IMG/VR virus record: IMGVR_UViG_3300009537_001521 | Span: 1 to 37,562 of that record | DNA length: 37,562 nt | Origin: a virus | Reading direction: 5' to 3' (one strand) | Part shown: one piece after another, positions 1 through 37,444 of the stretch | Position numbering within the stretch: the first letter of the stretch is position 1 | Layout of the letters: each line of letters starts with the position of its first letter | Notes under the pieces: generated by a model | Told to the model about the DNA's origin: nothing | Database searches by the model: none | The model's input: the letters and a program-made list of their open reading frames with translations, nothing else | Made by a program: the position numbers and the translations under genes

Positions 1-171
1 CACGGCATCGAGAACGACTCTCTGACCGTTGATGGTCACCGCCTATTCGTCCAACTCGACGATTTGGAGGTTGGCTTTCAGATGCGGGAGGCTATCCTTG
101 ACGTCCTTCCCTGCTGCCTGATTGCTCACCCGGAAACCAAGCAGCCCGTCCTCCAGATCTCCCTCTACTAA
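1..171 (+). CDS. C-terminal end of an unidentified protein (partial)
   Basis: Frame 1 is open from the first base to a TAA at 169-171, giving the last 56 residues of a protein whose start lies outside the window. The tail reads as a normal globular protein (for example ...LFVQLDDLEVGF... and ...PVLQISLY at the very end). I do not recognise the family. The next gene starts 12 bases downstream on the same strand, so it belongs to the same early operon. The reading frame is well supported by codon composition and by the tight spacing. Confidence 0.75.
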   Translation, partial: HGIENDSLTVDGHRLFVQLDDLEVGFQMREAILDVLPCCLIAHPETKQPVLQISLY

Positions 172-183
172 ACCACCACCATT

Positions 184-360
184 ATGGCCGAAGAAACATC
201 CAATGCGGTTCTTTCCGCTAAGCCCAAAGTGATTCGCTGTTCATGCGATCACAAAGCCCAAGACGAATTCCACGGAAAAGGATTCCGCGTTCACAATCCA
301 TGCAAGAAGTCAGGACCCGGAATCGGGTATCGCTGCACCGTCTGCAAAAACGAGAAATAA
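184..360 (+). CDS. Small CxC/CxxC zinc-ribbon phage protein
   Basis: The ATG at 184 follows the A/C-rich leader ACCACCATT, and the frame closes with TAA at 358-360, giving 58 residues. Visible motifs are CSCDHKAQDEFHG near residues 19-31, an NPC near 39-41, and RCTVCKNEK at the C-terminus. The order CxCxH..QD..HG...RVHN...RCTVC is one I recall as typical of a short conserved phage protein that probably binds one zinc ion. Its function is not established. It sits 30 bases upstream of the OB-fold gene, so a role in DNA metabolism is plausible. It is shorter than 60 residues. Confidence 0.8.
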   Translation: MAEETSNAVLSAKPKVIRCSCDHKAQDEFHGKGFRVHNPCKKSGPGIGYRCTVCKNEK

Positions 361-390
361 AAAACAAACAAACAAAAAACAAACACTACC

Positions 391-993
391 ATGTCGACCG
401 TCTTTCAAGCACTCAGCCTCCCAATTGGGGGGTCCGTCGTCCAACTCGATAACGTCACCGTCGCCGCCAAATACCCGGCCAGCAATGGCAAGAGCGGCAC
501 CGGCAAACGCCAGCGCAACATCCAAGTGTCTGACGCCTCGGGCACCATCAAGGTGAGCCTTTGGGGTGCGGCAGCCGATCTCCCGATCATGGACGGCAGC
601 GTCATCACCATTCGGGGTAACCTGAAACGCGGGGAATACCCGGCAGGCACGCCCCAACTCTCCGGTGAGGCTGGAATCACCATTGTAGCGCCCGATGAGT
701 CCGCAGTGGCGTCCAATCCCGCCGCCTACGCCCAAACGTCCGCAGCGGCTTCCCCGCAGAGCGCAATGGGCCATGTGAGCAAGGTTGCCCTCAACGACAT
801 CCAGCTCGCCCGGCGTCAGGCGGAGTTCACCATGGAATACATGGCGCAGCTCGTCGATTTGGGTGCGTCCAAGGAATTTGCGGAACGCGCCGCCATTCAC
901 GCTCCGCAACATGCCAGCCAATGGTTCTTCGGAGAGAAATACCCCGAAAAGGCCAACCTTCCTGACCAACAGGAAGAGGAATTCAACGGCTGA
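391..993 (+). CDS. OB-fold single-strand DNA-binding-like protein
   Basis: A 200-residue protein. Its first 110 residues read as an OB-fold nucleic-acid binding domain: VVQLDNVTVAAKY, then SDASGTIKVSLWG (around residues 47-59), then the strand-rich IMDGSVITIRGNLKRGEY. The pattern of a modified or conserved 'SD.SG.I.v.LWG' strand is characteristic of RPA/SSB-type OB folds. The C-terminal 65 residues are helical and end in an acidic tail (EEEFNG), as SSB-type proteins often do. The likely role is coating single-stranded DNA during phage replication. The leader upstream of the ATG is a long run of A and C with no Shine-Dalgarno sequence. No specific phage SSB family could be assigned by eye. Confidence 0.6.
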   Translation: MSTVFQALSLPIGGSVVQLDNVTVAAKYPASNGKSGTGKRQRNIQVSDASGTIKVSLWGAAADLPIMDGSVITIRGNLKRGEYPAGTPQLSGEAGITIVAPDESAVASNPAAYAQTSAAASPQSAMGHVSKVALNDIQLARRQAEFTMEYMAQLVDLGASKEFAERAAIHAPQHASQWFFGEKYPEKANLPDQQEEEFNG

Positions 994-1651
994 AAAGACA
1001 CCTTGCAGACAAAGGGATTGCGGCGGCGCTGTTTCGTTGGTCAACTCATACCCCTGTTCCGGCCAATCGCATAATGCCGGGACCTGCATCCTCTTTCACC
1101 GTGCTCCAGCCAGCCAATCGTGATATACCCCAAATCTCACTCCGAAAGAGTCGAGGCGTCACGGTTGCGTCAACGGGCTTAATCCTCTGGATTTTCCGGG
1201 GGGCGTTGGCGGCGGTGAATCCACCTTTGTTTCCCTCCTGACTGAGACAGTCGTTAATCAAAGCAATCTGAGAGCTTATGGGGATAGGTTCCAGCGCTAG
1301 CCTACAGCGTGATCGGCGAACGGGACGCAATGACGTAGGACCCCGAGACAGACCGGAGAGACGGTCACTCAATTTCCCCAAACAATGACCACTGAAGCAA
1401 TACCAGCGAACCGTGTCTCGACGGAGACAATCCTCAACCTGTGAGCTTCCTAAACCAGACTAAATCCCCGGCGCGATTGCCTGATCAGGTGTGCGGGGCT
1501 CTGTCGCAATGCCCTACTACGTTGTCTGGATCGTACAGAATGTAGGGAGTGGTCACCTCTTTCCAATACAATGCGGCGCGTGTGCGCAGAACATCCACTC
1601 TTGATTGGTAGTTCAAATGTCGGATTAAGCTCCGAGCGTTGCCGCACCTCC
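994..1651 (+). ncRNA. Candidate structured non-coding RNA in the only long gap
   Basis: Between the OB-fold gene and the gene at 1670 there are about 660 bases with no convincing reading frame in a window that is otherwise packed. The stretch is dense in short perfect hairpins: TTCCGGC with GCCGGGA (about 1057-1082), AATCC-TCT-GGATT (1181-1193), GGTG-AATC-CACC (1214-1225), GACTG-AGA-CAGTC (1240-1252), GACCG-GAGAGA-CGGTC (1351-1366), TGTCTC-GACG-GAGACA (1414-1429), a CCCC-G-GCGCG/TGTGC-GGGG stem (1466-1498), CCCTAC with GTAGGG (1512-1547) and GCGC-GTGT-GCGC (1576-1587). CCAGAC (1455-1460) can pair with GTCTGG (1524-1529) inside another loop, a possible pseudoknot. The strand is assumed from the neighbours. 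It could also be a replication origin or a degraded gene; no named RNA class was recognised. Confidence 0.35.
1450..1464 (+). repeat. Degenerate copy of the dispersed 15-bp palindrome
   Basis: CTAAACCAGACTAAA matches the consensus TTTAGYC-N-GRCTAAA at 12 of 15 positions, with an intact right half (GACTAAA) and a damaged left half. It lies inside the hairpin-rich non-coding stretch. It may be a weak or decayed site, or chance. Confidence 0.25.
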
Positions 1652-1666
1652 TTTAGCCTGCCTAAA
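1652..1666 (+). repeat. Dispersed 15-bp palindrome, copy 1 (start-codon proximal)
   Basis: TTTAGCCTGCCTAAA, one mismatch from the consensus in the right half. It ends 3 bases before the ATG at 1670, so it occupies the position where a ribosome binding site would be. The same variant recurs at 4166. Confidence 0.85.
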
Positions 1667-1669
1667 ACC

Positions 1670-1885
1670 ATGAACGACAGCCAAACCCGTCAGGACGCGT
1701 GGCGCTACTTCCGCCTCCATGAATGGAGCGTTCTACGTCAAATAGCGTTGCGCCGAGCCCTCCTTGAAACCGTCAAAAAGAACGAATACTGGGATTGGTC
1801 TCTCATCCATCGCATCTGTGCCCGCTTTCGTTGCGGCGCTGCCTTCTCCTTCTACGCCCAAACACCGCACCTCTACTGGTCATGA
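1670..1885 (+). CDS. Small basic protein of unknown function
   Basis: A 71-residue protein starting at the ATG that follows the palindrome by 3 bases; the context AAAACCATG matches other starts in the window. The sequence is rich in Trp, Arg and Tyr (WRYFRLHEW, YWDWSLIHR). I recognise no domain. An upstream in-frame ATG at 1571 is rejected because it would bury the palindrome and part of the hairpin-rich gap in the coding region. The stop TGA overlaps the ATG of the next gene (ATGA), indicating translational coupling. Confidence 0.6.
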   Translation: MNDSQTRQDAWRYFRLHEWSVLRQIALRRALLETVKKNEYWDWSLIHRICARFRCGAAFSFYAQTPHLYWS

Positions 1886-2052
1886 ATGAACACCTAGAAG
1901 CCCTCCTCCAACACTGGACCGAGGAGATTGCCGCATGGGAGCACTGCGCGCTCTTGAGCGCCTCCGACGAGGCGGTGCGCTCGCGCTGCATGGTGCGGGT
2001 GTGGACCATCAAGGACTGCCTCGACGACCTCAAACTCGCCCTGCGCAAATGA
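1882..2052 (+). CDS. Small helical protein of unknown function
   Basis: A 56-residue protein starting at ATG 1882, overlapping the previous stop by four bases (ATGA), and ending in a TGA that overlaps the next ATG. It is predicted fully helical with a pattern of charged and leucine residues (HLEALLQHWTEEIAAWEH and CLDDLKLALRK). Four-base coupling on both sides is the main support. No family recognised. Confidence 0.6.
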   Translation: MNEHLEALLQHWTEEIAAWEHCALLSASDEAVRSRCMVRVWTIKDCLDDLKLALRK

Positions 2053-2336
2053 AAGCCAACCTACCCCAGCACATCAGCCGTCAAGACCGGATCAGCATCC
2101 GCACAGGCAAGAGTATCGGGCAATTACTGGCGTTCTCGACCATCGAGGGGCCCTACGACTATGGCTGCCTGTTCCTGACTGGAGGAGAATGGCGCTTCAT
2201 CCTCACTTACCCAAGTTCCCTCTCCTTTTCAGATTTACAGACCATTTGTTGCCGACTAAAACAACTGAACGATGAAACCACGCAAGACCGCGTCGAAAAA
2301 GCCCAAGCGTCGCGCCGACATTCCCAGACCCCATAA
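2049..2336 (+). CDS. Hypothetical phage protein, 95 residues
   Basis: Starts at ATG 2049 within the ATGA overlap with the previous gene. The middle (GYLAFSTIEGPYDYG-like, actually LLAFSTIEGPYDYGCLFLTG) reads as beta strands followed by a short helix (FSDLQTICCRLKQL). The last 22 residues overlap the start of the HNH gene at 2272 in another frame. No family recognised. Support comes from coupling and natural composition. Confidence 0.6.
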   Translation: MKANLPQHISRQDRISIRTGKSIGQLLAFSTIEGPYDYGCLFLTGGEWRFILTYPSSLSFSDLQTICCRLKQLNDETTQDRVEKAQASRRHSQTP

Positions 2337-2721
2337 CGGTGGGCTTTGGAGCAAGGCCCGAATGACATCGTTCATCAAAAGCGCACTTCGAGGGGCCAGA
2401 TGGCCACCAAAATATGCAGCAGTTCAACAAGCCTTCGTGGGTATGGGAGTCAATCCGCGCACTGGACGCAAGTGTAAGCTCCATGAATGCCCAGACTGCG
2501 GGGGGCTATTCCCACAGAATGGAATGCACGCCGACCACATCATCCCGGTTATCGGACCAGAAGGTTTCGTCTCATGGGACATTTTCATCGCTCGTCTCTA
2601 CTGCGAAGCCGATGGTTTCCGAGCAGTCTGCAAGGACTGCCACAAGATCATCACCGAACGGGAGCGGAAAGAACGAGCCTCTATGGCTTCAAAACAACCC
2701 TCTTTTGAGAACTTCCTTTGA
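2272..2721 (+). CDS. HNH-type nuclease-like protein
   Basis: A 149-residue protein. After a basic N-terminal tail (KPRKTASKKPKRR) comes a zinc-finger/HNH core: CPDCGG (around residues 72-77), then NGMHADHIIPVIGPEGF with the His-Asp-His metal-binding cluster, then the helix SWDIFIARLYCEADGFRAVCKDCHK, which supplies the second CxxC pair. The two CxxC pairs and the DH motif are diagnostic of HNH proteins in phages, which act in packaging, repair or homing. Whether it is a homing enzyme cannot be told. It overlaps the previous gene by 65 bases. Confidence 0.75.
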   Translation: MKPRKTASKKPKRRADIPRPHNGGLWSKARMTSFIKSALRGARWPPKYAAVQQAFVGMGVNPRTGRKCKLHECPDCGGLFPQNGMHADHIIPVIGPEGFVSWDIFIARLYCEADGFRAVCKDCHKIITERERKERASMASKQPSFENFL

Positions 2722-2748
2722 AATCCTGTCCCGAAAACTTCGCCATCC

Positions 2749-3117
2749 ATGATTAAAGAACACTGGAAACCAATCCCATCACTCCCCGGTCGGGACATTA
2801 GCAACCTCGGACGCCTCCGCCATCGCTCACACATTTACGGAGCATGGCCTGATTCCTCTGGATCTTTGTTCACTCAAGTGAAAATCAAGACCATTCCAAA
2901 TAGCGTGCGCATTGCCCGTTTGGTTGGCGCGGCATTTTGCCCCGACTTCCGGGCCGACCTTCTTCCCAAACACATCAACGGAGACAAGACGGACTGCCGT
3001 GCGAAAAACCTTTTGTGGGTTCCGCGCCGCGAGGTGACAGGCAATCCCTATTCGATCAACCCCAAGCCACGCACAGAAGCCCTTCGGGCTGGAGAGGCCA
3101 TTGAATTCTCAGACTAA
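2749..3117 (+). CDS. NUMOD4/HNH-like homing endonuclease family protein
   Basis: A 122-residue protein starting at ATG 2749 (context CCATCCATG). The N-terminus EHWKPIPSLPGRDISNLGRLR is a NUMOD4-like opening. The segment RIARLVGAAFCP...KHINGDKTDCRAKNLLWV matches the I-HmuI-type HNH core (H.LV..aF.p...vnHidg.k.dn...NLewvt). The first His of the usual core is replaced here (RIARLV), so catalytic competence is uncertain. The C-terminus lacks an obvious DNA-recognition NUMOD1 helix. It probably is a free-standing homing endonuclease or a domesticated derivative. Confidence 0.7.
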   Translation: MIKEHWKPIPSLPGRDISNLGRLRHRSHIYGAWPDSSGSLFTQVKIKTIPNSVRIARLVGAAFCPDFRADLLPKHINGDKTDCRAKNLLWVPRREVTGNPYSINPKPRTEALRAGEAIEFSD

Positions 3118-3147
3118 ACCAACAACAACAAAGAAAGAACCAATAAT

Positions 3148-4161
3148 ATGTCAGCTGGAATCCAAGAGAGAGACCTACAAACCGCGCTGGAACAAGCGTG
3201 GCACGGGCAAACGAACATCGTCCTTGAAGTGACGCGGGACAATTCGATGCCATTCGAGATCATCGAGGCTCCCATCCAATACAAGGTGGACCGTCTTGAC
3301 GAATTCGGCACCCCCGTCGAAATCGTCATCGAAGACCCCAACTACAAGCGTCTCATCGCCAGTGACGACCTCAAGCCAATCGGGGAACCGTTCGCCAAGA
3401 GCTACTGCCCGTCCTCCATCGCCCAGTTCTGGGAAATCATCCGCAAGGGCATGGGAGAGACCCCCTACAAGGTGGTGAGCGCCGGAACCGTGGATGACCG
3501 CTGCAAGCTGTTTGCCTCGATCAAGGTGAGCGACGGCTTCCACATCGGAGAGCGTGAGTTCAAGGACTACATCACTCTGATCGACAGCTTCGACAAGACC
3601 ACCTCTTTACAGGCCCGCTACTCGTCCATCTGCGTGGTCTGCGCCAATACTTACGCGATGGTGATGAATTCCGGCACACAGCTTGGTAAGGCCAAACACA
3701 CCGCCTTCATTGACCTGAACGTGGGACGTCTCATTGACGCAATCAATGCCTTTGCCGGGACTAGCGCCTCCAACAAGGCGATGCTGCAACGTGCCTACCA
3801 GACGCCATGCAGCCGCGATGAGGCCCGCGCATGGATTACAGGGCTGGAAGGACGCAACGCCCCCGCATCAGGACTGACCAATGGGATGTTGCAGAAAACC
3901 GCACGCATGGTGGAGTTGTTCGACCAAGGCCGCGGCAACCAAGGGCGCACCCGCTTGGATGCTTTCTCCGCAGTTACCGACTTCCACTCGAATGAATCGA
4001 CAAACCGCAAGGGTGACGGCGCGCAGCATTACACCAGCGAATGGGGCGCATCGGCACAGGTGAAGAACCTTGTCGCTACCCGCTTCGAGCAGGACTGGGA
4101 GAGCAATGTGCGGACGGGCGAAGGCCTGTTGGCGCGTGACAAGGCCGTGCTGGTGTCCTGA
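3148..4161 (+). CDS. DUF932 (TIGR03299-like) phage/plasmid protein
   Basis: A 337-residue protein. Diagnostic stretches include the YKRLIASDDLKPIGEPFAKSYCP region, the GAGTVDDRCKLFASIKV-like strand (VDDRCKLFASIKVSDGF, around 115-131), DYITLIDSFDKTTS, CVVCANTYAMVM (about 160-172), and the helical C-terminus with WGASAQVKNLVATRFEQDW. This order matches the DUF932 family found in phages and plasmids, usually next to recombination or replication genes. Its biochemical role is unknown. The leader CAACAACAACAAAGAAAGAACCAATAAT-type A/C-rich run precedes the ATG. A palindrome copy follows 4 bases after the stop. Confidence 0.75.
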   Translation: MSAGIQERDLQTALEQAWHGQTNIVLEVTRDNSMPFEIIEAPIQYKVDRLDEFGTPVEIVIEDPNYKRLIASDDLKPIGEPFAKSYCPSSIAQFWEIIRKGMGETPYKVVSAGTVDDRCKLFASIKVSDGFHIGEREFKDYITLIDSFDKTTSLQARYSSICVVCANTYAMVMNSGTQLGKAKHTAFIDLNVGRLIDAINAFAGTSASNKAMLQRAYQTPCSRDEARAWITGLEGRNAPASGLTNGMLQKTARMVELFDQGRGNQGRTRLDAFSAVTDFHSNESTNRKGDGAQHYTSEWGASAQVKNLVATRFEQDWESNVRTGEGLLARDKAVLVS

Positions 4162-4165
4162 ACTA

Positions 4166-4180
4166 TTTAGCCTGCCTAAA
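4166..4180 (+). repeat. Dispersed 15-bp palindrome, copy 2 (start-codon proximal)
   Basis: TTTAGCCTGCCTAAA, identical to the copy at 1652. It sits 4 bases after the DUF932 stop and 2 bases before the ATG at 4183. It is 234 bp from copy 3, the closest pair in the window. Confidence 0.9.
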
Positions 4181-4182
4181 CC

Positions 4183-4386
4183 ATGAAAGGCAAGAGAACT
4201 CTATTCCTAGATCAGTGGGGCAACCACTTTTGGGCGCACACCATTAAGGAGCTCCGCTCACATATTGGAGGAGGCGGAAGCCGCGTGTCCCGAATGTATT
4301 GTGATCTCAAATCAGGCGGGTGCAAGCATGTCGGATGGGTAATTGGCGACCATTGGCTCACTCCTTACCAAAAAGCCCTCGCTTAA
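4183..4386 (+). CDS. Small hypothetical protein, 67 residues
   Basis: Starts 2 bases after a palindrome copy (CTAAACCATGAAAGG). The sequence has aromatic and glycine-rich character with two cysteines (YCDLKSGGCKHVGWVIGDHW), suggesting a small beta-rich or metal-binding fold. No family recognised. It lies alone between two palindrome copies, so its expression is likely to be controlled by them. Confidence 0.65.
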   Translation: MKGKRTLFLDQWGNHFWAHTIKELRSHIGGGGSRVSRMYCDLKSGGCKHVGWVIGDHWLTPYQKALA

Positions 4387-4399
4387 CAAACACCCCACC

Positions 4400-4414
4400 T
4401 TTAGCCTGACTAAA
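4400..4414 (+). repeat. Dispersed 15-bp palindrome, copy 3
   Basis: TTTAGCCTGACTAAA, exact consensus, in the 51-bp gap between the genes at 4183 and 4438, ending 23 bases before the ATG at 4438. It is placed as an operator for the gene at 4438 would be. Confidence 0.92.
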
Positions 4415-4437
4415 TCCTCTCTCCAACCAATACAACC

Positions 4438-5592
4438 ATGACCACCCCAACACCTGTCTACTACAACAACGCTCCGATTGACGAGTCCGACTACCCTGAG
4501 CTCGCCACCAAATTCAAAATTTCCTACGAAATCGTCTTTCGCTGTGTCGAGGCGCTTCGCAACACGGGAGAGATTCCCGTAATGGCCTTTTCCGGCGCCA
4601 ACAGAGAGCGCGTAAGGGCTTTGAGCGATGCTTTGGTCACTACCTCCCCGAAAGAGGATGCGCCGCCCGCAGCAGGCCAGCAGGAGCCATCAAACGAAGA
4701 CACTGGATTCGTAGTCATTATTGACGAAGAGAATGAAAAGGAGCCCGAACAACCATCGAACAACCCCCATCGCGGTAGTGAATTCGTTCATGAGGAGGAG
4801 CCTGCGGAAGACGAGGATCATGATGCCATTGTCGACCACGCGGCAACCGCCCTCATGCAGTCCTTCACTGATCCCGAGGGTTGTTTCCTTATCGACTTGG
4901 ATGGCTGTTGCTCGATCAATCCCAAAAATCCGCCGACCATTGAAGACTCTTACACCGCCGTCTCCCACATCATGAAGCTCAAGGAGCTTGGGACAGTGGT
5001 CGAGGACAAGAGCTCGTGGATGCTCGGGAGCGCCATTGACGCCCTCGAAGATCTCCACGGAGAAAGCTTCTCCATCTCACAAATTTGCGAGGACTCAGAG
5101 CTCAACTACAACACCACTTACCAAGCGGTTAATGTCTTCAAGGCCTTCAGGAAAAAGGACGAACGGGGGAACATGCCGAAACGCTTCAAGGTGCCGTTCT
5201 CGAACCATCAGGAGGCCTTCTTCGCCAAGATTAGTGAGGACAAGAAGGTTGACAAGGCCTTCAAGCACCTCATCCTCCAGAAGTCCGAAACCTATACACT
5301 GGGGTCCAAGGCGGTGCGGGCGCTCTGCTCCATTGCCAAGACGATGGAACCGGACGACACCGTAATCCGCAACATCCGCAGTGCCGAACAAGCCAAGGAC
5401 CTGATCGCCGCCTACAAGGCCTCCAAGTCCACCTTCATCGTCTTCAGCGAGGAGGGTTGGTGCATGTTCAATGATGCTGTGGACGCTGATCACGAAGGCA
5501 AGGTGGTGCTTAATCTCAAGGAACTTACCGCCACCGCAGGCGGAGTGGTCTCTCCAATCAAGAAAACCAGCGCACCAAAACTCGAAAGCTAA
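4438..5592 (+). CDS. Putative DNA-binding protein with ParB/LmbU-like helix-turn-helix
   Basis: A 384-residue protein. Residues 1-55 are a compact helical segment. About 65-135 are acidic and low in complexity (EDAPPAAGQQE, EEPAEDEDHD) and probably form a linker. Residues about 190-270 hold SSWMLGSAIDALEDLHGESF, a helix-turn-helix-like SISQICEDSELNYNTTYQAVNVFKAF, and PFSNHQEAFFAKI. This order (W.LG...E..GE....I.e...l.Y.T...a..V...F...R...FS.H.EA) resembles the DNA-binding core of ParB/LmbU-type proteins, though similarity by eye is modest. A C-terminal domain of about 90 residues follows. One palindrome copy ends 23 bp upstream and another lies 257 bp upstream, consistent with autoregulation. 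Function is inferred. Confidence 0.55.
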   Translation: MTTPTPVYYNNAPIDESDYPELATKFKISYEIVFRCVEALRNTGEIPVMAFSGANRERVRALSDALVTTSPKEDAPPAAGQQEPSNEDTGFVVIIDEENEKEPEQPSNNPHRGSEFVHEEEPAEDEDHDAIVDHAATALMQSFTDPEGCFLIDLDGCCSINPKNPPTIEDSYTAVSHIMKLKELGTVVEDKSSWMLGSAIDALEDLHGESFSISQICEDSELNYNTTYQAVNVFKAFRKKDERGNMPKRFKVPFSNHQEAFFAKISEDKKVDKAFKHLILQKSETYTLGSKAVRALCSIAKTMEPDDTVIRNIRSAEQAKDLIAAYKASKSTFIVFSEEGWCMFNDAVDADHEGKVVLNLKELTATAGGVVSPIKKTSAPKLES

Positions 5593-5936
5593 TGACCCCC
5601 CAAGAACAGAAACGCCTTCGTTTCATCCGTCTGTTCAAGGAGTTCAACGCGGTAAGCAGCAGCATCCAGTATGACATGGCACGCGTTCTCCTCACCGATG
5701 AGAACAACCGCAATGAACTATCCAAACAACTCAAGGAAAACGAGAACCAGATGGAAATCCGGATGAACAAGGCGGTGCACGCCTTTATTGGCGTGATGCC
5801 ATTGGCCACCATGAATCACTGCAACCTTTTCGGGAAAGTGCTGGCGCTGCACTCCAACCTGACCGGAGACCCCCTCATGCACGACACCTACGACGAAGTG
5901 AATCGACAGACCATCGAAGAGATGGATTGCAACTGA
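5592..5936 (+). CDS. Hypothetical helical protein, 114 residues
   Basis: The ATG overlaps the previous stop (TAATG), so translation is probably coupled to the putative DNA-binding protein. The protein is helical throughout, with a charged amphipathic stretch (NNRNELSKQLKENENQMEIRMNK is too long to quote whole; residues about 38-60) and a hydrophobic central part (AFIGVMPLATMNHCNLFGKVL). No family recognised. It might be a partner of the protein encoded at 4438. Confidence 0.65.
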   Translation: MTPQEQKRLRFIRLFKEFNAVSSSIQYDMARVLLTDENNRNELSKQLKENENQMEIRMNKAVHAFIGVMPLATMNHCNLFGKVLALHSNLTGDPLMHDTYDEVNRQTIEEMDCN

Positions 5937-5994
5937 ACGCTGAGTCTAGGCACGCCGACAATGGCGGCTGACACACCTCACCAGAAATCAAACC

Positions 5995-6063
5995 ATGAAA
6001 TACGATTGGATCACAATAGCCCTCGAAAACGGCGGAGTCCTCACGGAATTTACGCCTCGATGA
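5995..6063 (+). CDS. Possible 22-residue small ORF
   Basis: ATG 5995 has the AAACCATG context used by bona fide genes here, and the TGA at 6061-6063 overlaps the next ATG (ATGA at 6060). The peptide begins MKYDWITIALENGG, which reads like a real protein start. It may be a coupling leader for the gene at 6060 or the remnant of a longer gene. Low confidence because of size. Confidence 0.3.
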   Translation: MKYDWITIALENGGVLTEFTPR

Positions 6064-6188
6064 ACTGGCGAAAGTTGCCCGAGTCCATCAGCGGGGAATA
6101 TCGCTCGACGCTGCCAGACGCACTGACATCGCTCAACTCGGAACTGGAGGAGGACGGCGCCGATGAATGTTGTCCCACGAACGTATAA
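6060..6188 (+). CDS. Small acidic protein, 42 residues
   Basis: ATG 6060 lies in an ATGA overlap with the 22-residue ORF. The product is MNWRKLPESISGEYR... with an acidic end ELEEDGADECCPTNV. The frame is open back to an ATG at 5961, but the extra 33 residues (basic and His/Ser-rich) look like out-of-frame translation and lack the start context. No family recognised. Confidence 0.4.
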   Translation: MNWRKLPESISGEYRSTLPDALTSLNSELEEDGADECCPTNV

Positions 6189-6192
6189 ACTC

Positions 6193-6558
6193 ATGGACGC
6201 CGACCAAATACCGCCCGAACTCGACAAGGACGCTCCTCGGAATTCCATGCAGCGTTTTGTTCGGCATTGGGACAGGTTGCACTGGGCCGTGGGAATGCGG
6301 TCAAAATCCCGCAAGCCGGATGAGATGTTGATCGGGGTGTCATGGCATAAAATCACGCCCCCGATTTATGAAGGCGAGCCATCGCGCCCGCTTCTATTCC
6401 ACACCCGCTCCCAAGCTCGAAAATGGTGTGCGGCAAAAACTATCGAATGCGCCCGCCATTCACCGGACTGGAGGTTCCGCCCGGTGAGAGTTCGCGAAAT
6501 GATTTTGCCGAACGTCGGAGCCCTCCCGCCCGTAACCCCTGAAAGGATACTGCCATGA
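6193..6558 (+). CDS. Hypothetical protein, about 121 residues
   Basis: The ATG at 6193 follows the previous stop by 4 bases; an ATG at 6163 in the same frame would add 10 residues and overlap the previous gene by 26 bases. The product contains a basic segment (GMRSKSRKPDEMLIGVSWHK), tryptophans and an SQARKWCAAKTIECARH helix. No family recognised. Its TGA (6556-6558) overlaps the first possible ATG of the primase-helicase frame. Confidence 0.55.
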   Translation: MDADQIPPELDKDAPRNSMQRFVRHWDRLHWAVGMRSKSRKPDEMLIGVSWHKITPPIYEGEPSRPLLFHTRSQARKWCAAKTIECARHSPDWRFRPVRVREMILPNVGALPPVTPERILP

Positions 6559-6608
6559 TGCCCAAAAGATTATTCAACCATTCACACAACACAGAAAGAT
6601 ATTCACCC

Positions 6609-8444
6609 ATGAACAAACTTGAAGCAAAATTTTACGACCTGCAACAACTCAAGGACGCCCTAGCCGGGCGCATTGATGAGTTTTGCATCACCCTGTTTCC
6701 AAATGCCCACCGGGAGAATAGCTGTTACAAGATCGGCAACCTCCAAGGCGAGAAGGGTTCGTCGCTGATGATCTCCACCCGCTCCACCAACCCCGGCTGG
6801 TTTGTCGACTATGCCGATCCATCGGTCAAGGGGCACGCGTGGCGCTTGGTCTCGCTGGTTAAGGGCATTTCGCTCAAGGAGGGTATCGCGTGGCTGGCCA
6901 ACTTCGTCAATGTCCCGCCTATCCAGAGCTTCGGTAACATTAGTCAGGCTAAAAATCCCGAGAAACTCGCCGCCAAAATTCTGACCCTCAACGAACGTTC
7001 CATTGCCTTCGCGGCGGCGCGTGGAATCACCGAGGAAACCCTGCTCAAATACGGAGTAGGCTCCGACTTGCGAGACGGACTCGTCTTTCCCTACTACGAC
7101 GCTTTTGACAACCTAGGAATGCTCAAGCACTGGGGTCACAAGCTCAGGGATGACGGCAAGAAAGACACATGGACCTCGCCAGAGCCCATCATGAGCTTGT
7201 TCGGCAAGGACGTCTGCGACCCGGAGACCGGCCTCCAAAGGCTCACCATCACCGAAGGAGAGTGGGACGCCATGGCGTGTTGGCAGCTTGGCATCCCCGC
7301 CGTCTCCATCCCGATGGGTGTCTCCAACATGCAGTGGATTACGGAGGACTACCAATTTCTTTCCCATTTCGACGAGATTGTCTTGTTGTTTGATACAGAC
7401 GAACCGGGGAAGAAGTGTGCGAAGGACGTCGCGGCACGTCTGGGGACCGAGCGATGCATTGTCGCCACCCTACCCCTCAAGGACGCCAACGACATGCTCA
7501 AGGCCGGGCGGGGTGGAGAAATCCAGAACATCATCGACACCACCACCAAAGAACCCATCGCCGAGATTGTCGATCCTTCCTCGATGAAAGAGGGGGTGAA
7601 GAGCTACATGAAGGGCGAGCACCTTGTGGATGGAGACCCATTCTTTCTGCCAGCATTCGACATGTCATTCCGAAAACACGAAATCACCCTGTGGTTTGGG
7701 TTTTCGTTTCATGGGAAATCGCAAAGCGTGCAGAACCAGATGGCTTTTTTGGCGAGCAGGGGCAAGCCGTGCTGCGTCGCGTCGTTCGAACAACCACCCG
7801 AGCTCACTTTTGCCCAGATCATGACGTGCATGACTGCTTACCCCAACATGCCATTCACCGATGAATTTGACAAAGCTTACGACTACACCAGCAGGAACGT
7901 CTTCATGTATAAGAGCATGGAGAGGGCTGATCCGAAGCACCTCATCTCAACCTTCATCCACGCCCATAAGCGCTACGGCATCGACACCTTCGTTATCGAC
8001 AACGTCATGACCATGAGCATCGACCGTGGAGACAACACGGCACAGGCGGATGCTATGGACGGACTACGGACATTCGTGGCAAAGTATCCCGTCCATCTCC
8101 ATATCGTGGCGCACCCGCGCAAGCCTCCTGAAAATACCAGCAAGCCACCCGGAATGGCCGAAATCCGAGGCGCATCCGAATGGGGAGACATGCCCCACAA
8201 TATTGTGACTGTCTGGAGGGACATGGTGAAAGCCGAAACCTTGGCCGAAATGGAGAACAATAATTTCTCTGACGGCGACATGAAAGACTTCTTCAACTCC
8301 ACTCCATGCGGAAAACTCATTGTTCGAAAACAACGCACCACCGGAGAAACCCCAATGACTTCTTTCTGGTTCCACAAGGAATGCAAAAGGTTCATGAGCA
8401 AACCCGGAGAACCCAACCCGATGTATTCCACCAAACCGTGGTAA
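6609..8444 (+). CDS. Primase-helicase (TOPRIM plus DnaB/RecA-type helicase)
   Basis: A 611-residue protein from ATG 6609. An ATG at 6555 would add 18 residues, but the bases between are an A/C-rich leader like those of other genes. The N-terminal ~120 residues resemble a primase zinc domain fold (PGWFVDYADPSVKGHAWRLVSLV) but lack the usual cysteine quartet. The TOPRIM domain has the catalytic Glu in TITEGEWDAMA (about residue 216) and the DxD in LLFDTDEPGKK (about 261), with LPLKDANDMLKAG after it. The helicase domain has Walker A GFSFHGKSQ (Lys about 370), SFEQPPE, Walker B FVIDNVM (about 464), and HIVAHPRKP. It resembles T7 gp4/Twinkle enzymes, which unwind the fork and make primers. A palindrome copy lies inside the gene at 6939. 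Confidence 0.9.
   Translation: MNKLEAKFYDLQQLKDALAGRIDEFCITLFPNAHRENSCYKIGNLQGEKGSSLMISTRSTNPGWFVDYADPSVKGHAWRLVSLVKGISLKEGIAWLANFVNVPPIQSFGNISQAKNPEKLAAKILTLNERSIAFAAARGITEETLLKYGVGSDLRDGLVFPYYDAFDNLGMLKHWGHKLRDDGKKDTWTSPEPIMSLFGKDVCDPETGLQRLTITEGEWDAMACWQLGIPAVSIPMGVSNMQWITEDYQFLSHFDEIVLLFDTDEPGKKCAKDVAARLGTERCIVATLPLKDANDMLKAGRGGEIQNIIDTTTKEPIAEIVDPSSMKEGVKSYMKGEHLVDGDPFFLPAFDMSFRKHEITLWFGFSFHGKSQSVQNQMAFLASRGKPCCVASFEQPPELTFAQIMTCMTAYPNMPFTDEFDKAYDYTSRNVFMYKSMERADPKHLISTFIHAHKRYGIDTFVIDNVMTMSIDRGDNTAQADAMDGLRTFVAKYPVHLHIVAHPRKPPENTSKPPGMAEIRGASEWGDMPHNIVTVWRDMVKAETLAEMENNNFSDGDMKDFFNSTPCGKLIVRKQRTTGETPMTSFWFHKECKRFMSKPGEPNPMYSTKPW
6939..6953 (+). repeat. Dispersed 15-bp palindrome, copy 4 (intragenic)
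   Basis: ATTAGTCAGGCTAAA, one mismatch, inside the primase-helicase gene where it is read as ISQAK. Its orientation is opposite to most sense-strand copies. Confidence 0.75.
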
Positions 8445-8457
8445 ATCAACCAATCCC

Positions 8458-8997
8458 ATGAAATCCAGAATCCACAACCTCGTCGAGAAGATGACCGAAG
8501 CCCTTGGCCCCGTCTTCCGAGCCCACCCCGACTACAACGACATCCTCCAAGCCACTTGTCTGGTGATGGCAAGGGTGCTACAATCCACACCGGATCGTGG
8601 AACCGAGCTCATCTTGTGCGAAGCGGCGTTCCAAACCACCAATGAAGCCCTGATCAAATTCCTCGATGCAGAAGAAGCCATTCAAGAAGCCCGCCAAAAC
8701 ATCTTGGCTAAAGGAATTGACGGCTTTGCAAAGCTTGTCGAACCCGGCAGCGCCGCCGACTACCCAGACAACAGTGACCAACCCGTCTCTAAAACCCAAA
8801 AGCCGTTCAACCCGGACCATACCCTCGCCGCGTTCAACGGTGGACTGGGACCCGAATCTCAAGCCGAAGCCGAAAGGTTCGCGGGAGAAGACCACAGTCA
8901 GGAAGAAGGTTGGGCCAACAGTCCCATCCACGACGAAATCGCTCGCCACGAAGAAGCGGAAGCGGCCCGCCAAGACACCTACAAGGAAACGGATTGA
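8458..8997 (+). CDS. Hypothetical protein with acidic C-terminal tail, 179 residues
   Basis: Starts 13 bases after the primase-helicase (AATCCCATG). The N-terminal half is helical (LVEKMTEALGPVF, ILQATCLVMARVLQST); the C-terminal half is acidic and likely disordered (AEAERFAGEDHSQEEGW, ARHEEAEAARQDTYKETD). No family recognised. Codon use is normal to the end, so this frame is real. Its last 332 bases also encode a basic stretch of the HNH gene's frame. Confidence 0.65.
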   Translation: MKSRIHNLVEKMTEALGPVFRAHPDYNDILQATCLVMARVLQSTPDRGTELILCEAAFQTTNEALIKFLDAEEAIQEARQNILAKGIDGFAKLVEPGSAADYPDNSDQPVSKTQKPFNPDHTLAAFNGGLGPESQAEAERFAGEDHSQEEGWANSPIHDEIARHEEAEAARQDTYKETD

Positions 8998-9328
8998 GGC
9001 CACCTACAAGGAAGCGCACGAAGCGTATGAGAAACTACATTTTGAGACCGTTTGTGCCGTCTGCGGACTCCGCAGCGAGACTCGCCGCATGGAGAGGCAT
9101 CACGTCGCCGGACGCTCCAAAAGCACCTTCTGCTTCTTCGTCTACCTCCACAATGCGTGCCACCACCAACGCGTTCACAAAGATCCCGGATGGGCCGAAG
9201 AGCACGGACTGCTCGCCAAAGGCAGGAACCGCACCCCCCTTACCGCAGAACGGGCAACTGAGCTTGTCGCTATGATGCCTTTCCCGGCCTGCTACGCATT
9301 GACCATCCTCAAGCAATCTTTAGCCTGA
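8666..9328 (+). CDS. HNH endonuclease-like protein (start uncertain)
   Basis: The clear domain is at the C-terminus, about 9020-9250: CAVCGLRS, MERHHVAGRSKST, then LHNACHHQRVHKDPGWAEEHGLL, a complete HNH zinc-binding core (CxxC, HH, and CHHQRVH in the final helix). The only ATG in frame before the domain is at 8666, which would give 220 residues and a 332-base overlap with the gene at 8458. The overlapping part is very basic (KKRKRPAKTPTRKRIE) and may simply be the other frame of an acidic coding region. The true start may be a non-ATG codon near 8993-9000. The stop TGA lies inside the palindrome at 9319. Confidence 0.6.
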   Translation: MQKKPFKKPAKTSWLKELTALQSLSNPAAPPTTQTTVTNPSLKPKSRSTRTIPSPRSTVDWDPNLKPKPKGSREKTTVRKKVGPTVPSTTKSLATKKRKRPAKTPTRKRIEATYKEAHEAYEKLHFETVCAVCGLRSETRRMERHHVAGRSKSTFCFFVYLHNACHHQRVHKDPGWAEEHGLLAKGRNRTPLTAERATELVAMMPFPACYALTILKQSLA

Positions 9329-9333
9329 CTAAA
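9319..9333 (+). repeat. Dispersed 15-bp palindrome, copy 5 (start-codon proximal)
   Basis: TTTAGCCTGACTAAA, exact consensus. It contains the TGA stop of the HNH gene and ends 2 bases before the ATG at 9336. Confidence 0.92.
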
Positions 9334-9335
9334 CC

Positions 9336-9677
9336 ATGAAATACGAAGGACGGCTCTACGGCAAACTGGGGAGACGCTACATTCCTCTCTCCCTGACATC
9401 ATTCGATATTGATGAAATGGAATATGAAAACGAAGTAATGAAGGAGCACCTTGTAAAGCTCATCGGGGTTTTCGTCATTCCCCCGCAACCACAAGCAGGG
9501 AGGGAGCCAACAGCTTTCCCTAGTCCTCCAATTCCATTTGATTTTGACCAGTCTGGAGCCGTCCACACATCATTCAAATTCGACCAATCAATCTGCACCG
9601 AATGCGGCAAGCCAGTCTTGTCCGCCGACGGCACGATGGACGACACTCATGCTCACTGTTACCCCACCACCCCATGA
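9336..9677 (+). CDS. Hypothetical phage protein with C-terminal CxxC, 113 residues
   Basis: The start ATG is 2 bases after the palindrome (AAACCATG). The N-terminus MKYEGRLYGKLGRRYIPLSLTS resembles a short module frequent in phage small proteins, as far as I recall. A proline-rich linker follows, then CTECGKPVLSADGTMDDTHAHCY, a likely zinc-binding CxxC...H.HC knuckle. Function unknown. Its TGA overlaps the next ATG. Confidence 0.7.
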   Translation: MKYEGRLYGKLGRRYIPLSLTSFDIDEMEYENEVMKEHLVKLIGVFVIPPQPQAGREPTAFPSPPIPFDFDQSGAVHTSFKFDQSICTECGKPVLSADGTMDDTHAHCYPTTP

Positions 9678-9898
9678 AGACCACCCACCAGATCGCCCGT
9701 GAACTGCTGGCCCTGCCCGACATCCCACTTCTAATCGAGGGATGGTACCGAATGGACCACCACGAGATGGCGGCATCCATTACCGACTACGACCCGAACC
9801 GGGCTATCCTGTGGCAGAAGCCTGATTCATCGCTCCTCCCCGTCGAACACCCCGGCAGCACGTGGCGCTGGCTCAACATCAACCCCACCACCAAATGA
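9674..9898 (+). CDS. Hypothetical protein, 74 residues
   Basis: The ATG at 9674 is coupled by ATGA to the previous gene and sits after CACCACCCC. The N-terminus MKTTHQIARELLALPDIPLLI resembles that of the protein at 10146. The rest has aromatic residues and ends in a Trp-rich strand (STWRWLNINP). No family recognised. Confidence 0.6.
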   Translation: MKTTHQIARELLALPDIPLLIEGWYRMDHHEMAASITDYDPNRAILWQKPDSSLLPVEHPGSTWRWLNINPTTK

Positions 9899-10149
9899 AG
9901 ACACCTAAAGAATATCAAACCAAAGCCCGCTGGGGAAACCCAATCGACACTTCAGCCACAAGGACAAAAGAAAAGCTTAATGACTTGCTCTTCGATATAG
10001 GAGAAGACCTAGCGTCCAAGCTTAATGATCTTTTTGGCAATCAAAACATCGAGATCAAATGGACCATTTATCAGAATGAGACTGAAAACCCGGATAGGGC
10101 ATTAGGCCAATTCCGCATCATCGCAACTCGTGAAAAACCTACCCAATGA
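9895..10149 (+). CDS. Hypothetical protein, 84 residues
   Basis: The ATG at 9895 is in an ATGA overlap with the preceding stop. Begins MKTPKEYQTKARWG, followed by an amphipathic helix (KEKLNDLLFDIGEDLASKLNDL) and a beta segment (IEIKWTIYQ). No family recognised. The first four residues equal those of the next gene, suggesting a shared leader or descent. Confidence 0.6.
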   Translation: MKTPKEYQTKARWGNPIDTSATRTKEKLNDLLFDIGEDLASKLNDLFGNQNIEIKWTIYQNETENPDRALGQFRIIATREKPTQ

Positions 10150-10655
10150 AAACACCTGAAGAATGGAAAAGAGAAATCCTAGCAATGCCTGCCGGGTTGC
10201 CATCAATTCTTGAAATCATCGAAAGTATACAACATGACGCCCTTTCCGACCCGCTGACATCCACTACAGACCAGCAGGAGCTGGACATGGCCAATGAATG
10301 CGCCGCCAACGAACACATCCGGGCCGACCAGCTTTTCGACGAGATGGTAAGGATGCGGGCCAAGTGGCACGAATGCAGGCGCTACCTGCGAGCTGCCAAC
10401 AAGGGAGCAGAGCGCAACGCAAAAGCTCTCGCACTGGCACAAGACAATTACTGGAAGATGGTCGACTCCGACAAGCGCTGGAAGGAACGCGACGCCTACA
10501 AGCACGAGGTGATTGTCTGGAACTGGCTCCTCATGACCGACGGTGAGCTGGAGAACAAATTGTGCACAACCTTCACACAGGAAAAGGCGACCGCCATTCG
10601 AAAGCTTCTCAAAGCCATGCTTGGCACCAAGGTGCTGGGCCACAACCAACTGTAA
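10146..10655 (+). CDS. Hypothetical helical protein, 169 residues
   Basis: The ATG at 10146 is coupled by ATGA to the previous gene. Begins MKTPEEWKREILAMPAG and continues helical with a coiled-coil-like middle (residues about 50-125: AANEHIRADQLFDEMVRMR, NAKALALAQDNYWKMV). No enzyme motif seen. A length-variable helical phage protein with this start type is common, but I cannot assign a function. Confidence 0.65.
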   Translation: MKTPEEWKREILAMPAGLPSILEIIESIQHDALSDPLTSTTDQQELDMANECAANEHIRADQLFDEMVRMRAKWHECRRYLRAANKGAERNAKALALAQDNYWKMVDSDKRWKERDAYKHEVIVWNWLLMTDGELENKLCTTFTQEKATAIRKLLKAMLGTKVLGHNQL

Positions 10656-10657
10656 CC

Positions 10658-10816
10658 ATGTGGACCCCACTCACCGACAAGGAATTCGAGGAAGAGAAGC
10701 TCGATGAATGTTGGCGTGGTTTCGCCTACTGAGATGACGAAGGCTACTTAGTCACTCTTGCCATGCACCAGAAAGCCATCGAAAGCCTAATTCCAAAAAT
10801 ACCACCACCACCATGA
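10658..10816 (+). pseudogene. Small gene interrupted by an in-frame TGA
   Basis: ATG 10658 has the strong TAACCATG context, 2 bases after the previous stop. The frame gives 24 residues ending WRGFAY, then TGA at 10730-10732, and continues open in the same frame as DDEGYLVTLAMHQKAIESL... to a second TGA at 10814-10816 that overlaps the ATG of the next gene (ATGA). The whole span behaves as a coupled 51-residue gene with one stop in the middle; a single base change (TGG to TGA) would explain it, giving FAYWDDEGYL. Alternatives are a 24-residue protein, stop readthrough, or a sequencing error. Confidence 0.55.
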
Positions 10817-11472
10817 ACCCGCGCGAAATCTGTATCATAGAATGGGCGAATGCCTGCGAGCTGATCAATGAGAGAGACGGTTTGGGAATTATTATTCGCG
10901 AACCTAAAGACGCAGAAACCATCATTGAATCACTCCAACGGTTCGTATCATCCTTCCCCACCTACACACAAACACCAACCATCACCACCATGCCCTACAC
11001 TGAAGCCATCAGCCGCCTAAAGCGGGACCGAGACACTCTCATTCACAACGCCAGTCTCCCCGACTGCGAAGATAGGAAGGTCCATCTCAATACCGCATAC
11101 GACTTGCAAAACGCCATCTCCTATCTCAGGGTGGCCAATCTCGGAGGGTTAAGCGCGCTGGTATCACTGATCCGCCAGTGGGGCACCGACCGCAACATCA
11201 TCGGAAAGAATGCCAAAGCCACCGTGCACACCCAGTTCGAAAAGCTACGGGAGGAGTTTGCGGAGCTTGAAGACGGCTTGGTCCGAGAGGATCAGCACGC
11301 CATCATCGACGGCATCGGAGACATGACGGTGGTCCTCATCCTGCTGGCGGGGCTGGCCGGGGTGCGGTTTGAAACCTGTTTGTACGCCGCTTATGACGAG
11401 ATCAAGAGCCGCAGACCATCGGCCAGATGCTCGGCATGCCAACCACCTTCCCACAGGAATAATTTAGCCTGA
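10813..11472 (+). CDS. MazG-like nucleotide pyrophosphohydrolase
   Basis: The domain spans about residues 118-196: IRQWGTDRNIIGKN, then KLREEFAELEDGL (metal-binding Glu about 147-151), then IIDGIGDMTVVLILLAGLAG (Asp about 166 and 170) and CLYAAYDEIKSR. This matches the phage MazG-like family, which hydrolyses nucleoside triphosphates or ppGpp-type alarmones and can keep a starved host productive. The family normally ends in R.G.M..G.F..E, but here the frame runs into RPSARCSACQ; the -1 frame gives IGQMLGMPTTFPQE and a TAA at 11460-11462 just before a palindrome. The first 59 residues are not part of the domain; ATG 10990 (ACCACCATG) may be the true start. Confidence 0.75.
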   Translation: MNPREICIIEWANACELINERDGLGIIIREPKDAETIIESLQRFVSSFPTYTQTPTITTMPYTEAISRLKRDRDTLIHNASLPDCEDRKVHLNTAYDLQNAISYLRVANLGGLSALVSLIRQWGTDRNIIGKNAKATVHTQFEKLREEFAELEDGLVREDQHAIIDGIGDMTVVLILLAGLAGVRFETCLYAAYDEIKSRRPSARCSACQPPSHRNNLA

Positions 11473-11477
11473 CTAAA
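11463..11477 (+). repeat. Dispersed 15-bp palindrome, copy 6
   Basis: TTTAGCCTGACTAAA, exact consensus, containing the TGA stop of the MazG-like frame. It is 39 bases before the ATG at 11517, and 2 bases before an ATG at 11480 that opens only a 15-codon frame. Confidence 0.92.
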
Positions 11478-11516
11478 GAATGAAGTTTGAATCCCTCACA
11501 CAACCAAAAACACACC

Positions 11517-12092
11517 ATGCCAGCTAAAAAGACATCCAAGAAGAAGCCCCTGACCAAGCAGGAATCCAACCGTAACTACCTCATCCGCAAGAAGGAGAAG
11601 GAGAAAGCCGCTTCCACAGCCGCCGCCGCCGCCGCCTTCGAGGCCGCGCTCTCCCCTGAGCCAGTCAAGGCGGAGGAGCCCCTCACAACGTCCACTCCCC
11701 ACGAGATGGAGGTGTTTGATGACGATGGGTTCAATGAATGGGCTCCGAATCAGGGGATGGGAGACAACCCATTGAATGTGGAGACAGGAGAATGGAAGAC
11801 GCCGGAGGTGCCAACCGTGGAGACCAATCCACCAGATGCCGGGTCTTTGCTATCTCCCGAGCCCGTGGAGGCGTCCGCGCCCCCTGTCCCTCACATAGTG
11901 CCACAAGAGCTGCCCGACGCGCTGGAGACGCCCCCCGACGCGCTAATCGTCGAACGCCTCATCAACGCCGTGAACCACCTCTATGGCATCGCCCGCCTGA
12001 CCAAAGGCCAAAAAGGCCCGCAGCCCGAGCACATTGCCAAGATCATCACCAATATCAAACACGCCCGCAACCTTGTGGAACGCCTCAAATGA
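11517..12092 (+). CDS. Hypothetical protein with basic head and acidic proline-rich linker
   Basis: A 191-residue protein from ATG 11517 (ACACACCATG); an in-frame TTG at 11487 is rejected because it would translate the A/C-rich leader. It has a lysine-rich N-terminus (AKKTSKKKPLTKQ), an alanine run, a long acidic, proline-rich low-complexity linker (about residues 35-140) and a helical C-terminal domain (IVERLINAVNHLYGIARLTKG, HIAKIITNIKHARNLVERL). The C-terminal helices may mediate assembly or nucleic-acid binding. No family recognised. Confidence 0.65.
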   Translation: MPAKKTSKKKPLTKQESNRNYLIRKKEKEKAASTAAAAAAFEAALSPEPVKAEEPLTTSTPHEMEVFDDDGFNEWAPNQGMGDNPLNVETGEWKTPEVPTVETNPPDAGSLLSPEPVEASAPPVPHIVPQELPDALETPPDALIVERLINAVNHLYGIARLTKGQKGPQPEHIAKIITNIKHARNLVERLK

Positions 12093-12385
12093 GAAAGAAA
12101 CCAAAGCCAAAACGTCTTGGCGTCAAAGACCTGCTGCAACTCATTGGAGCCAACCCCAATGACGTGGTGCCCACTTCCATCTCAGAGGCCCGCCTACTCG
12201 CTGGTGTCACCCACGAGGAACAAGTCCGCTGCCCGTCCAATGGAAAGGTGTGCTTCTCTAGTGAGTCGGGAGCTAAAAGCGCCGCCCGCGCCCGTCTTAA
12301 CAAAGGCTCCAATGTAGGAAAACTCAGGACCTACAGGTGCCCAGACTGCAACCAGTTTCACCTAAGCTCCTCCTTCCACCGATGA
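12089..12385 (+). CDS. Small zinc-finger-like protein, 98 residues
   Basis: The ATG at 12089 is coupled by ATGA to the previous gene. A basic N-terminus (RKKPKPKRLG) is followed by a helix, then RCPSNGKVCFSSESGAKSAARARL and YRCPDCNQFHLSSSFHR at the C-terminus. The two cysteine pairs and the end pattern 'YRCPDC..FHLSS' are typical of a short phage zinc-ribbon protein. Function unknown; it probably binds nucleic acid. The stop TGA overlaps the next ATG. Confidence 0.7.
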   Translation: MRKKPKPKRLGVKDLLQLIGANPNDVVPTSISEARLLAGVTHEEQVRCPSNGKVCFSSESGAKSAARARLNKGSNVGKLRTYRCPDCNQFHLSSSFHR

Positions 12386-12684
12386 ACCAAGAACCTGAAT
12401 GGAAAGTCCAATTCAAGGGCAACTTTGAAACACACTTCGAAATAGCCGTTATCCACAAGGACAACTCCCATGGCCGAATTTCCTTTGGTTGGGGATGTGA
12501 ATATAAAATCATCCTGTTCTCTTCAGGAGTGGGAGGGAACAACCTGAATATGACCAACAAGGAGTTTGGAATGAAGGCAGCACAAATCCTTTGTGAAGGA
12601 CTAAACACCTCTGATTTCCGGATGGTTGATTTGGCTGTGCCTAATGAATTCAAGGTGCCTATCCCTGACTCTTCAACGTGGTAA
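12382..12684 (+). CDS. Hypothetical beta-rich protein, 100 residues
   Basis: The last gene of the plus-strand block. The ATG at 12382 (CCACCGATGAACC) is coupled to the previous stop. The sequence alternates strands (WKVQFKGNFETHFEIAVIH, SFGWGCEYKIILFSSG) and ends in a helix and a short strand. No family recognised. One base after the stop a palindrome begins, followed directly by the stop of the convergent giant gene. Confidence 0.65.
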   Translation: MNQEPEWKVQFKGNFETHFEIAVIHKDNSHGRISFGWGCEYKIILFSSGVGGNNLNMTNKEFGMKAAQILCEGLNTSDFRMVDLAVPNEFKVPIPDSSTW

Positions 12685-12685
12685 C

Positions 12686-12700
12686 TTTAGTCAGACTAAA
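12686..12700. repeat. Dispersed 15-bp palindrome, copy 7 (at the convergent junction)
   Basis: TTTAGTCAGACTAAA, a perfect 7+1+7 palindrome. It starts 1 base after the stop of the plus-strand block and ends directly before the stop triplet of the giant minus-strand gene, filling nearly the whole 16-base junction. Confidence 0.92.
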
Positions 12701-34064: not shown

Positions 34065-34079
34065 TTTAGCCGGGCTAAA
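34065..34079. repeat. Dispersed 15-bp palindrome, copy 15 (intergenic)
   Basis: TTTAGCCGGGCTAAA, perfect palindrome, in the gap between the stop at 34082 and the start at 34003. Its position 61 bases upstream of that start fits an operator. Confidence 0.92.
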
Positions 34080-37429: not shown

Positions 37430-37444
37430 TTTAGCCGGGCTAAA
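37430..37444. repeat. Dispersed 15-bp palindrome, copy 16 (intergenic)
   Basis: TTTAGCCGGGCTAAA, identical to copy 15, in the 68-bp gap between the partial gene at 37454 and the start at 37385. It lies 44 bases upstream of that ATG. Confidence 0.92.

Follow-up and report, generated by a model that had tools for sequence, protein, structure and literature searches.

A candidate palindrome-binding protein with a predicted ParB/Noc-type core and the scattered palindromes of a little-known phage group

The 37,562-nt window (the whole stretch of viral DNA that was analysed) derives from a little-known phage group and carries the palindrome TTTAG-N5-CTAAA, a conserved genome-wide feature of that group. 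The best candidate to bind it is P0001, a protein of 384 aa encoded by one open frame at 4438–5592 (+). This candidacy, first proposed in a first-pass annotation made from the letters of the window alone, withstood each computation able to refute it and is supported by a predicted ParB/Noc-type helix-turn-helix (HTH), a weak LmbU match, the presence of the protein in ten of ten large genomes and a site before 22 of 22 orthologs. We consider it likely that P0001 binds the palindrome, and regard repression or a roadblock as the outcome of such binding as an even call. The best reading as a whole, toward which we lean slightly, is a repressor or transcription roadblock that acts at many sites, regulates its own gene and has a ParB/Noc-type domain. 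The palindrome array and P0001 would belong with the scattered-site regulators of phages and plasmids.

Results

The pattern TTTAG-N5-CTAAA was found 13 times in the window, compared with ~0.02 occurrences expected from arm frequencies, and exact TTTAGNCNGNCTAAA is present in 12 copies. The same arms at every other spacer from 0 to 10 were absent from the window, and a reversed control pattern had 0 matches there. Some sites lie immediately before genes, such as TTTAGCCTGCCTAAA at 1652–1666 (ATG 3 bp downstream) and TTTAGCCTGACTAAA at 9319–9333 (ATG 2 bp downstream). Further copies of TTTAGCCTGACTAAA were located at 11463–11477 and at 30585–30599, the latter within the gene at 30077–31429. The primase-helicase gene contains a near-site with one mismatch, ATTAGTCAGGCTAAA (6939–6953). 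On the late side, TTTAGCCGGGCTAAA at 34065–34079 represents the near-symmetric core class, and a second copy at 37430–37444 is upstream of the gene at 36114–37385.

Relatives were collected from IMG/VR phage contigs, yielding 25 related records of which the larger ones were read whole: P0001 alone led to one, the primase-helicase to 20 loci, DUF932 to one more record and a P0001 profile to four more. Group genomes hold one exact palindrome per ~2–5 thousand bases, and most large records have 13–30 copies, with one main spacer per genome. At N5, the counts are 13 in the window, 28 in G002 and 18 in G022, and at N6 there are 30 in G023, against expectations of 0.02–0.06. Among short palindromes, TTTAG-N5-CTAAA shows the strongest over-representation in the window, G002, G008, G010, G011, G007, and G022, TTTAG-N6-CTAAA occupies the same rank in G004, G014, G023, and G024, and TTTAG-N3-CTAAA occurs 0–1 times in these genomes. 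One relative of 69 kb (G025) carries a P0001 ortholog, yet just two of its sites have intact arms and a few others are degenerate; this counts against the best reading and makes G025 a case for studying decay or change of the array. When all viral contigs were scanned for the site plus a start codon, blind to P0001, only members of this group were recovered, including two contigs that are late-region fragments without the P0001 locus. A literature search for the palindrome site found no report.

The spacer core falls largely into two classes, with CCTGA in 45 and CCSGG in 33 of 111 distinct N5 sites. Across the N5 genomes compared (window, G002, G008, and G011), CCTGA outnumbers CCSGG by 20 to 3 on the side of the giant gene where P0001 lies, and beyond that gene CCSGG leads by 15 to 10 (P 0.001 for the comparison), which perhaps reflects unequal affinity or timing. 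Two changes are needed to place the N6 spacing on the P0001 tree, the basal forks of that half being unresolved.

Upstream of P0001, TTTAGCCTGCCTAAA at 4166–4180 and TTTAGCCTGACTAAA at 4400–4414 are separated by 234 bp from start to start, and 23 bases lie between the second palindrome and the ATG at 4438; positions and distances are those given in the first-pass annotation, which had treated both palindromes as upstream sites of the 4438 gene. This holds for the 4400 site, the proposed auto-operator, in a layout that the orthologs share. To call the 4166 site just another operator of this gene would be too simple, as it adjoins a separate ORF of 67 aa (4183–4386, +) located between both palindromes. 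This ORF starts 2 bp past the 4166 site, which may therefore serve the small ORF, or both genes together. Wherever the upstream DNA of an ortholog is intact (22 cases), a site is present no more than 310 bp away, in most cases directly before the gene. Arms are intact and the spacer is 5 or 6 in 18 of these, one (in G011) combines intact arms with a spacer of 4, and three (in G023, its near twin G024, and G025) have one arm mismatch. For the orthologs of G004, G012, G018, G014, and G020, the sole upstream site occupies the distal place, 276–309 bp off. Since many genes have a preceding site, the one before P0001 is circumstantial evidence.

Several other elements were observed around this locus. 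Another dyad, GGTCAAT..ATTGACC or near it, is situated just before the start codon of P0001 orthologs in L006, L010, L018, and G004/G014; these are the relatives whose TTTAG-N6 site is at the distal place, and the dyad may be the site of another regulator. The next larger gene upstream of P0001 encodes a DUF932 protein (3148–4161, +). Two HNH endonuclease-like genes in a row (2272–2721 and 2749–3117, +), one of them NUMOD4/HNH_3, are probably homing endonucleases. Elsewhere in the group, a conserved gene of 930 aa in G002 (L026:3634–6426) showed a weak match to the phage terminase large subunit and to Pfam intein-splicing (E 2e-7, below cut-off), and is perhaps a terminase interrupted by an intein.

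Orthologs of P0001 were identified in 24 of the 25 related records, the exception being a 4-kb fragment; none of the ten large genomes of the group lacks one. DUF932 is the one other family shared by all ten, and of the two, DNA binding is predicted for P0001 alone. No relatives were found in named phages and plasmids, nor in cellular genomes in one scan. Another phage or host protein might bind the palindrome, leaving P0001 as just a conserved gene with a preceding site; a site just upstream is common among the genes of these phages, DUF932 is equally universal, and P0001 residues are not singled out by the spacer change, as those tracking N5/N6 do not exceed the numbers obtained with control groupings. 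We nevertheless regard this as improbable, because no other widely conserved family of the group scored as a DNA-binding regulator and because P0001 is predicted to contain a ParB-type DNA-binding core.

The AlphaFold2 model of full-length P0001 (mean pLDDT 73) shows the architecture described in the first-pass annotation, i.e., an HTH-like center, an acidic linker, and a C-terminal domain. Residues 1–70 (4438–4647, +) form a small helical domain with helices at 16–25, 30–43, and 54–65, which by eye may be HTH-like (YPELATKFKISYEIVFRCVEAL). This domain is followed by the acidic linker, residues 71–131 (4648–4830, +), with a net charge of −17 and predicted to be disordered (pLDDT <50 over 72–131). 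The predicted ParB/Noc-type DNA-binding core spans residues ~132–304 (4831–5349, +) with its HTH at ~211–237, so that structure prediction returned the kind of fold on which the earlier proposal depended. The C-terminal domain, residues 316–373 (5383–5556, +), consists of a helix and five beta strands, and our guess is that it serves dimerisation.

Modeling lends moderate support to a core that folds like the DNA-binding domain of ParB and Noc. The core of the G002 ortholog modeled alone reached a pLDDT of 84 and a pTM of 0.79. Comparison of the core model with the PDB by VIA-align, which aligned it to the DNA-binding domains of Noc, Spo0J, and ParB, gave eight best chains that are all ParB or Noc (Z 6.9–8.0), among them the DNA-bound structures 6y93 (Noc) and 6s6h (ParB), and Raf1 came next at 6.6 and lower; with the full-length model, Noc ranked first and second and Spo0J fourth. 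The top Foldseek match of the core model was also ParB, at a probability of 0.80 and an E of 2.0 that is too weak to stand alone. As Z values of up to 8 can come from a common arrangement of elements, the fold match is good but not conclusive. The full-length model had no meaningful match in Foldseek, and comparison with a viral structure library gave no match.

Sequence searches of Pfam, PHROGs, and PDB with P0001 and its orthologs gave nothing significant, and the C-terminal domain had no convincing match among PDB sequences, KorB-C included. Five orthologs matched the NCBIfam model LmbU_fam_TF (NF038070) with E between 3e-5 and 0.06, each match starting at profile position 25, at a best score of 24.1 bits against a curated cut-off of 125 bits; P0001 of the window itself did not match this model. 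The HTH_ParB sequence model had no match in the ten genomes, P0001 included, and neither did the ParB_N (PF02195) CTPase domain at E up to 1. The G-x-R-R box motif is absent from 17 P0001 orthologs, and the N-terminus of P0001 is short and helical. The label ParB/LmbU-like given to P0001 at the outset is partly supported, by a predicted ParB/Noc-type core fold and a weak LmbU match in orthologs, and does not extend to a match to ParB_N, to HTH_ParB, or to LmbU above the cut-off. For KorA/TrfB, AV..V..AF and HQA look alike by eye but hhalign finds nothing, and this homology was discarded. For KorB, hhalign aligns the DNA-binding regions in a plausible register without significance (E 0.037, probability 1.4%).

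Across the group, many sites end 0–11 bp before an ATG, and asymmetric cores agree with the direction of transcription by 43 to 10, a count whose significance is overstated since related genomes were thinned by flank identity only. With sites near start codons and along transcription, a bound protein would stand in the way of RNA polymerase at many points, and the leader position, the orientation bias and the autoregulatory layout fit a many-site repressor or an elongation block. Such positions and their agreement with transcription would also suit a palindrome that acts as an RNA hairpin in leaders and controls translation. This explanation is highly improbable, given that the commonest transcript form folds with only −0.2 kcal/mol, that its reverse complement folds better, that the arms are invariant and not compensating, and that further sites lie in gene interiors and, for the giant gene, at its 3′ end. 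Shine-Dalgarno-like motifs precede 3–10% of gene starts compared with 11–18% in random stretches (window, G002, G008, G011, G007, G023, and G004), which suggests a host without reliance on such motifs. With no such signal above background, the site occupies a leader free of it. Sigma-70 promoters and terminators in 1–12700 were at chance level, and searches for RNA families and tRNAs found none.

Approximately three in ten distinct sites fall within called genes, the giant gene among them. In the window, this gene (12701–30067, −) comprises one uninterrupted frame of 5788 aa. Its counterparts measure ~3850–5790 aa as called and are only 22–56% identical between distinct phages. TTTAGTCAGACTAAA (12686–12700) lies at the 3′ end of the window's giant gene, and within this gene are the palindromes TTTAGTCAGGCTAAA, at 15857–15871 (a place common to G008 and G011) and at 21014–21028, and TTTAGCCAGGCTAAA (27285–27299), the site TTTAGCTCGGCTAAA (22671–22685), and the near-sites TTTAGTCAGGCTAAC (18188–18202) and TTTAGCCTGGCTAAC (26855–26869). 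Seven site pairs from different genomes coincide in the giant-protein alignment, where 0.27 would be expected; with the null narrowed to residues that can encode the site, P is 0.006. This count omits G010 (97% identical to G002) and uses an alignment that is weak at this level of identity. At the best-shared place, an FSxxK protein motif may be conserved in its own right. In seven genomes (window, G002, G008, G022, G010, G011, and G023, of which G010 nearly copies part of G002), distances from site to site vary less than at random, also against a null that draws sites from real gaps and genes, and G004, G007, and G014 have no significant regularity.

Pure promoter repression needs neither the sites within genes nor their over-even spacing. 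Both, together with the conserved places within the giant gene, speak for P0001 binding its sites mainly to organise or segregate phage DNA in a Noc-, MatP- or centromere-like manner, where evenly spaced anchors would serve replication, packaging or host-factor exclusion by bridging, condensing or tethering the genome. The best fold matches likewise include Noc, with NBS sites spread over the chromosome. However, start-codon placement and orientation bias point to transcription, three genomes are without significant regularity, and neither a CTPase domain nor ParA was detected, so that we judge a mainly organising role unlikely, if less so than binding by another protein. The centromere-like sites that the first-pass annotation had envisaged for a ParB-like protein are not borne out: in the ten genomes, ParA (PF13614) was missing although control models did match, and so was ParB_N, which makes both a CTP-driven clamp and a ParABS centromere improbable.

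Discussion

We propose that the central ParB/Noc-type HTH domain of P0001, without the nucleotide-binding domain of ParB, would contact TTTAG-N5-CTAAA, or the N6 form found in some relatives. The protein would probably do so as a dimer, each subunit on its own TTTAG half-site. One or two sites in the leader of its own gene would then confer autoregulation. At the remaining sites, which are mostly a few bases before start codons, in some cases in long genes, and oriented along transcription, P0001 would block RNA polymerase, and phage genes might thereby be held down or timed. Models of tyrosine integrases and serine recombinases had no match in the ten genomes; with no integrase or resolvase found, a lysogeny repressor would be without its usual company, and plasmid-like lysogeny is possible. 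The repressor or roadblock and a Noc-like organiser may both hold. In a more tentative extension, a ParB-type domain without the CTPase clamp, acting with evenly spaced anchors, would stop transcription at operon starts and also organise the phage chromosome, the spacing having changed from 5 to 6 genome-wide in some lineages. If the proposal is true, P0001 shows what the DNA-binding part of a ParB-type protein does on a whole replicon without the CTP switch, and the genome-wide shift of the spacer from 5 to 6 is a natural series in which to study the joint change of a protein and all its sites.

To our knowledge, few phages with dozens of regulator sites genome-wide are known. The best-studied such system is L5, which has another protein and another site type. 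Like the palindromes of the P0001 group, the stoperators of L5, a cluster A mycobacteriophage, are a phage system of >20 sites genome-wide, many of them in short intergenic gaps and oriented with transcription; repression or an elongation block in which orientation matters is reported for them (PMC9283540). The L5 repressor and P0001 are also alike in possibly having two DNA-binding domains. However, each L5 site is an asymmetric 13-mer to which a monomer binds, whereas sites of the P0001 group are palindromic with an imperfect core; the proteins differ, and no integrase was found here. LmbU regulators share with P0001 a central HTH, over which the weak profile match recurs in orthologs, and an extra N-terminal domain. 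Their site, CGCCGGCG (PMC6510168), is unlike the palindrome of the P0001 group, and the best ortholog reaches 24 bits versus a cut-off of 125.

Noc is among the best structural matches of the P0001 core and likewise has palindromes spread over a replicon (PMC7383237). It differs in its site, neither a CTPase nor a membrane-binding N-terminus was found in P0001, and sites of the P0001 group adjoin start codons. KorA and KorB of the IncP plasmid RK2 recognize the operators OA, TTTAGCTAAA, and OB, TTTAGC[C/G]GCTAAA, respectively (PMC2680271), and thus use a half-site, TTTAG/CTAAA, identical to that of the palindrome described here. As is proposed for P0001, their operators occur at several places on one replicon and include autoregulation, and KorB carries a ParB-type DNA-binding domain as is predicted for P0001 (PMC2680271, PMC11790492). 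Compared with KorB, P0001 has no ParB_N CTPase domain, no ParA partner, and no significant sequence match, and the spacer is 5 or 6 in the palindromes of the P0001 group versus 3 in OB or 0 in OA. The shared half-site is a resemblance rather than proof, but it represents a second, independent hint of a ParB-type reader, and the combination of a half-site as in the RK2 silencers with a different spacing adds to the interest of P0001.
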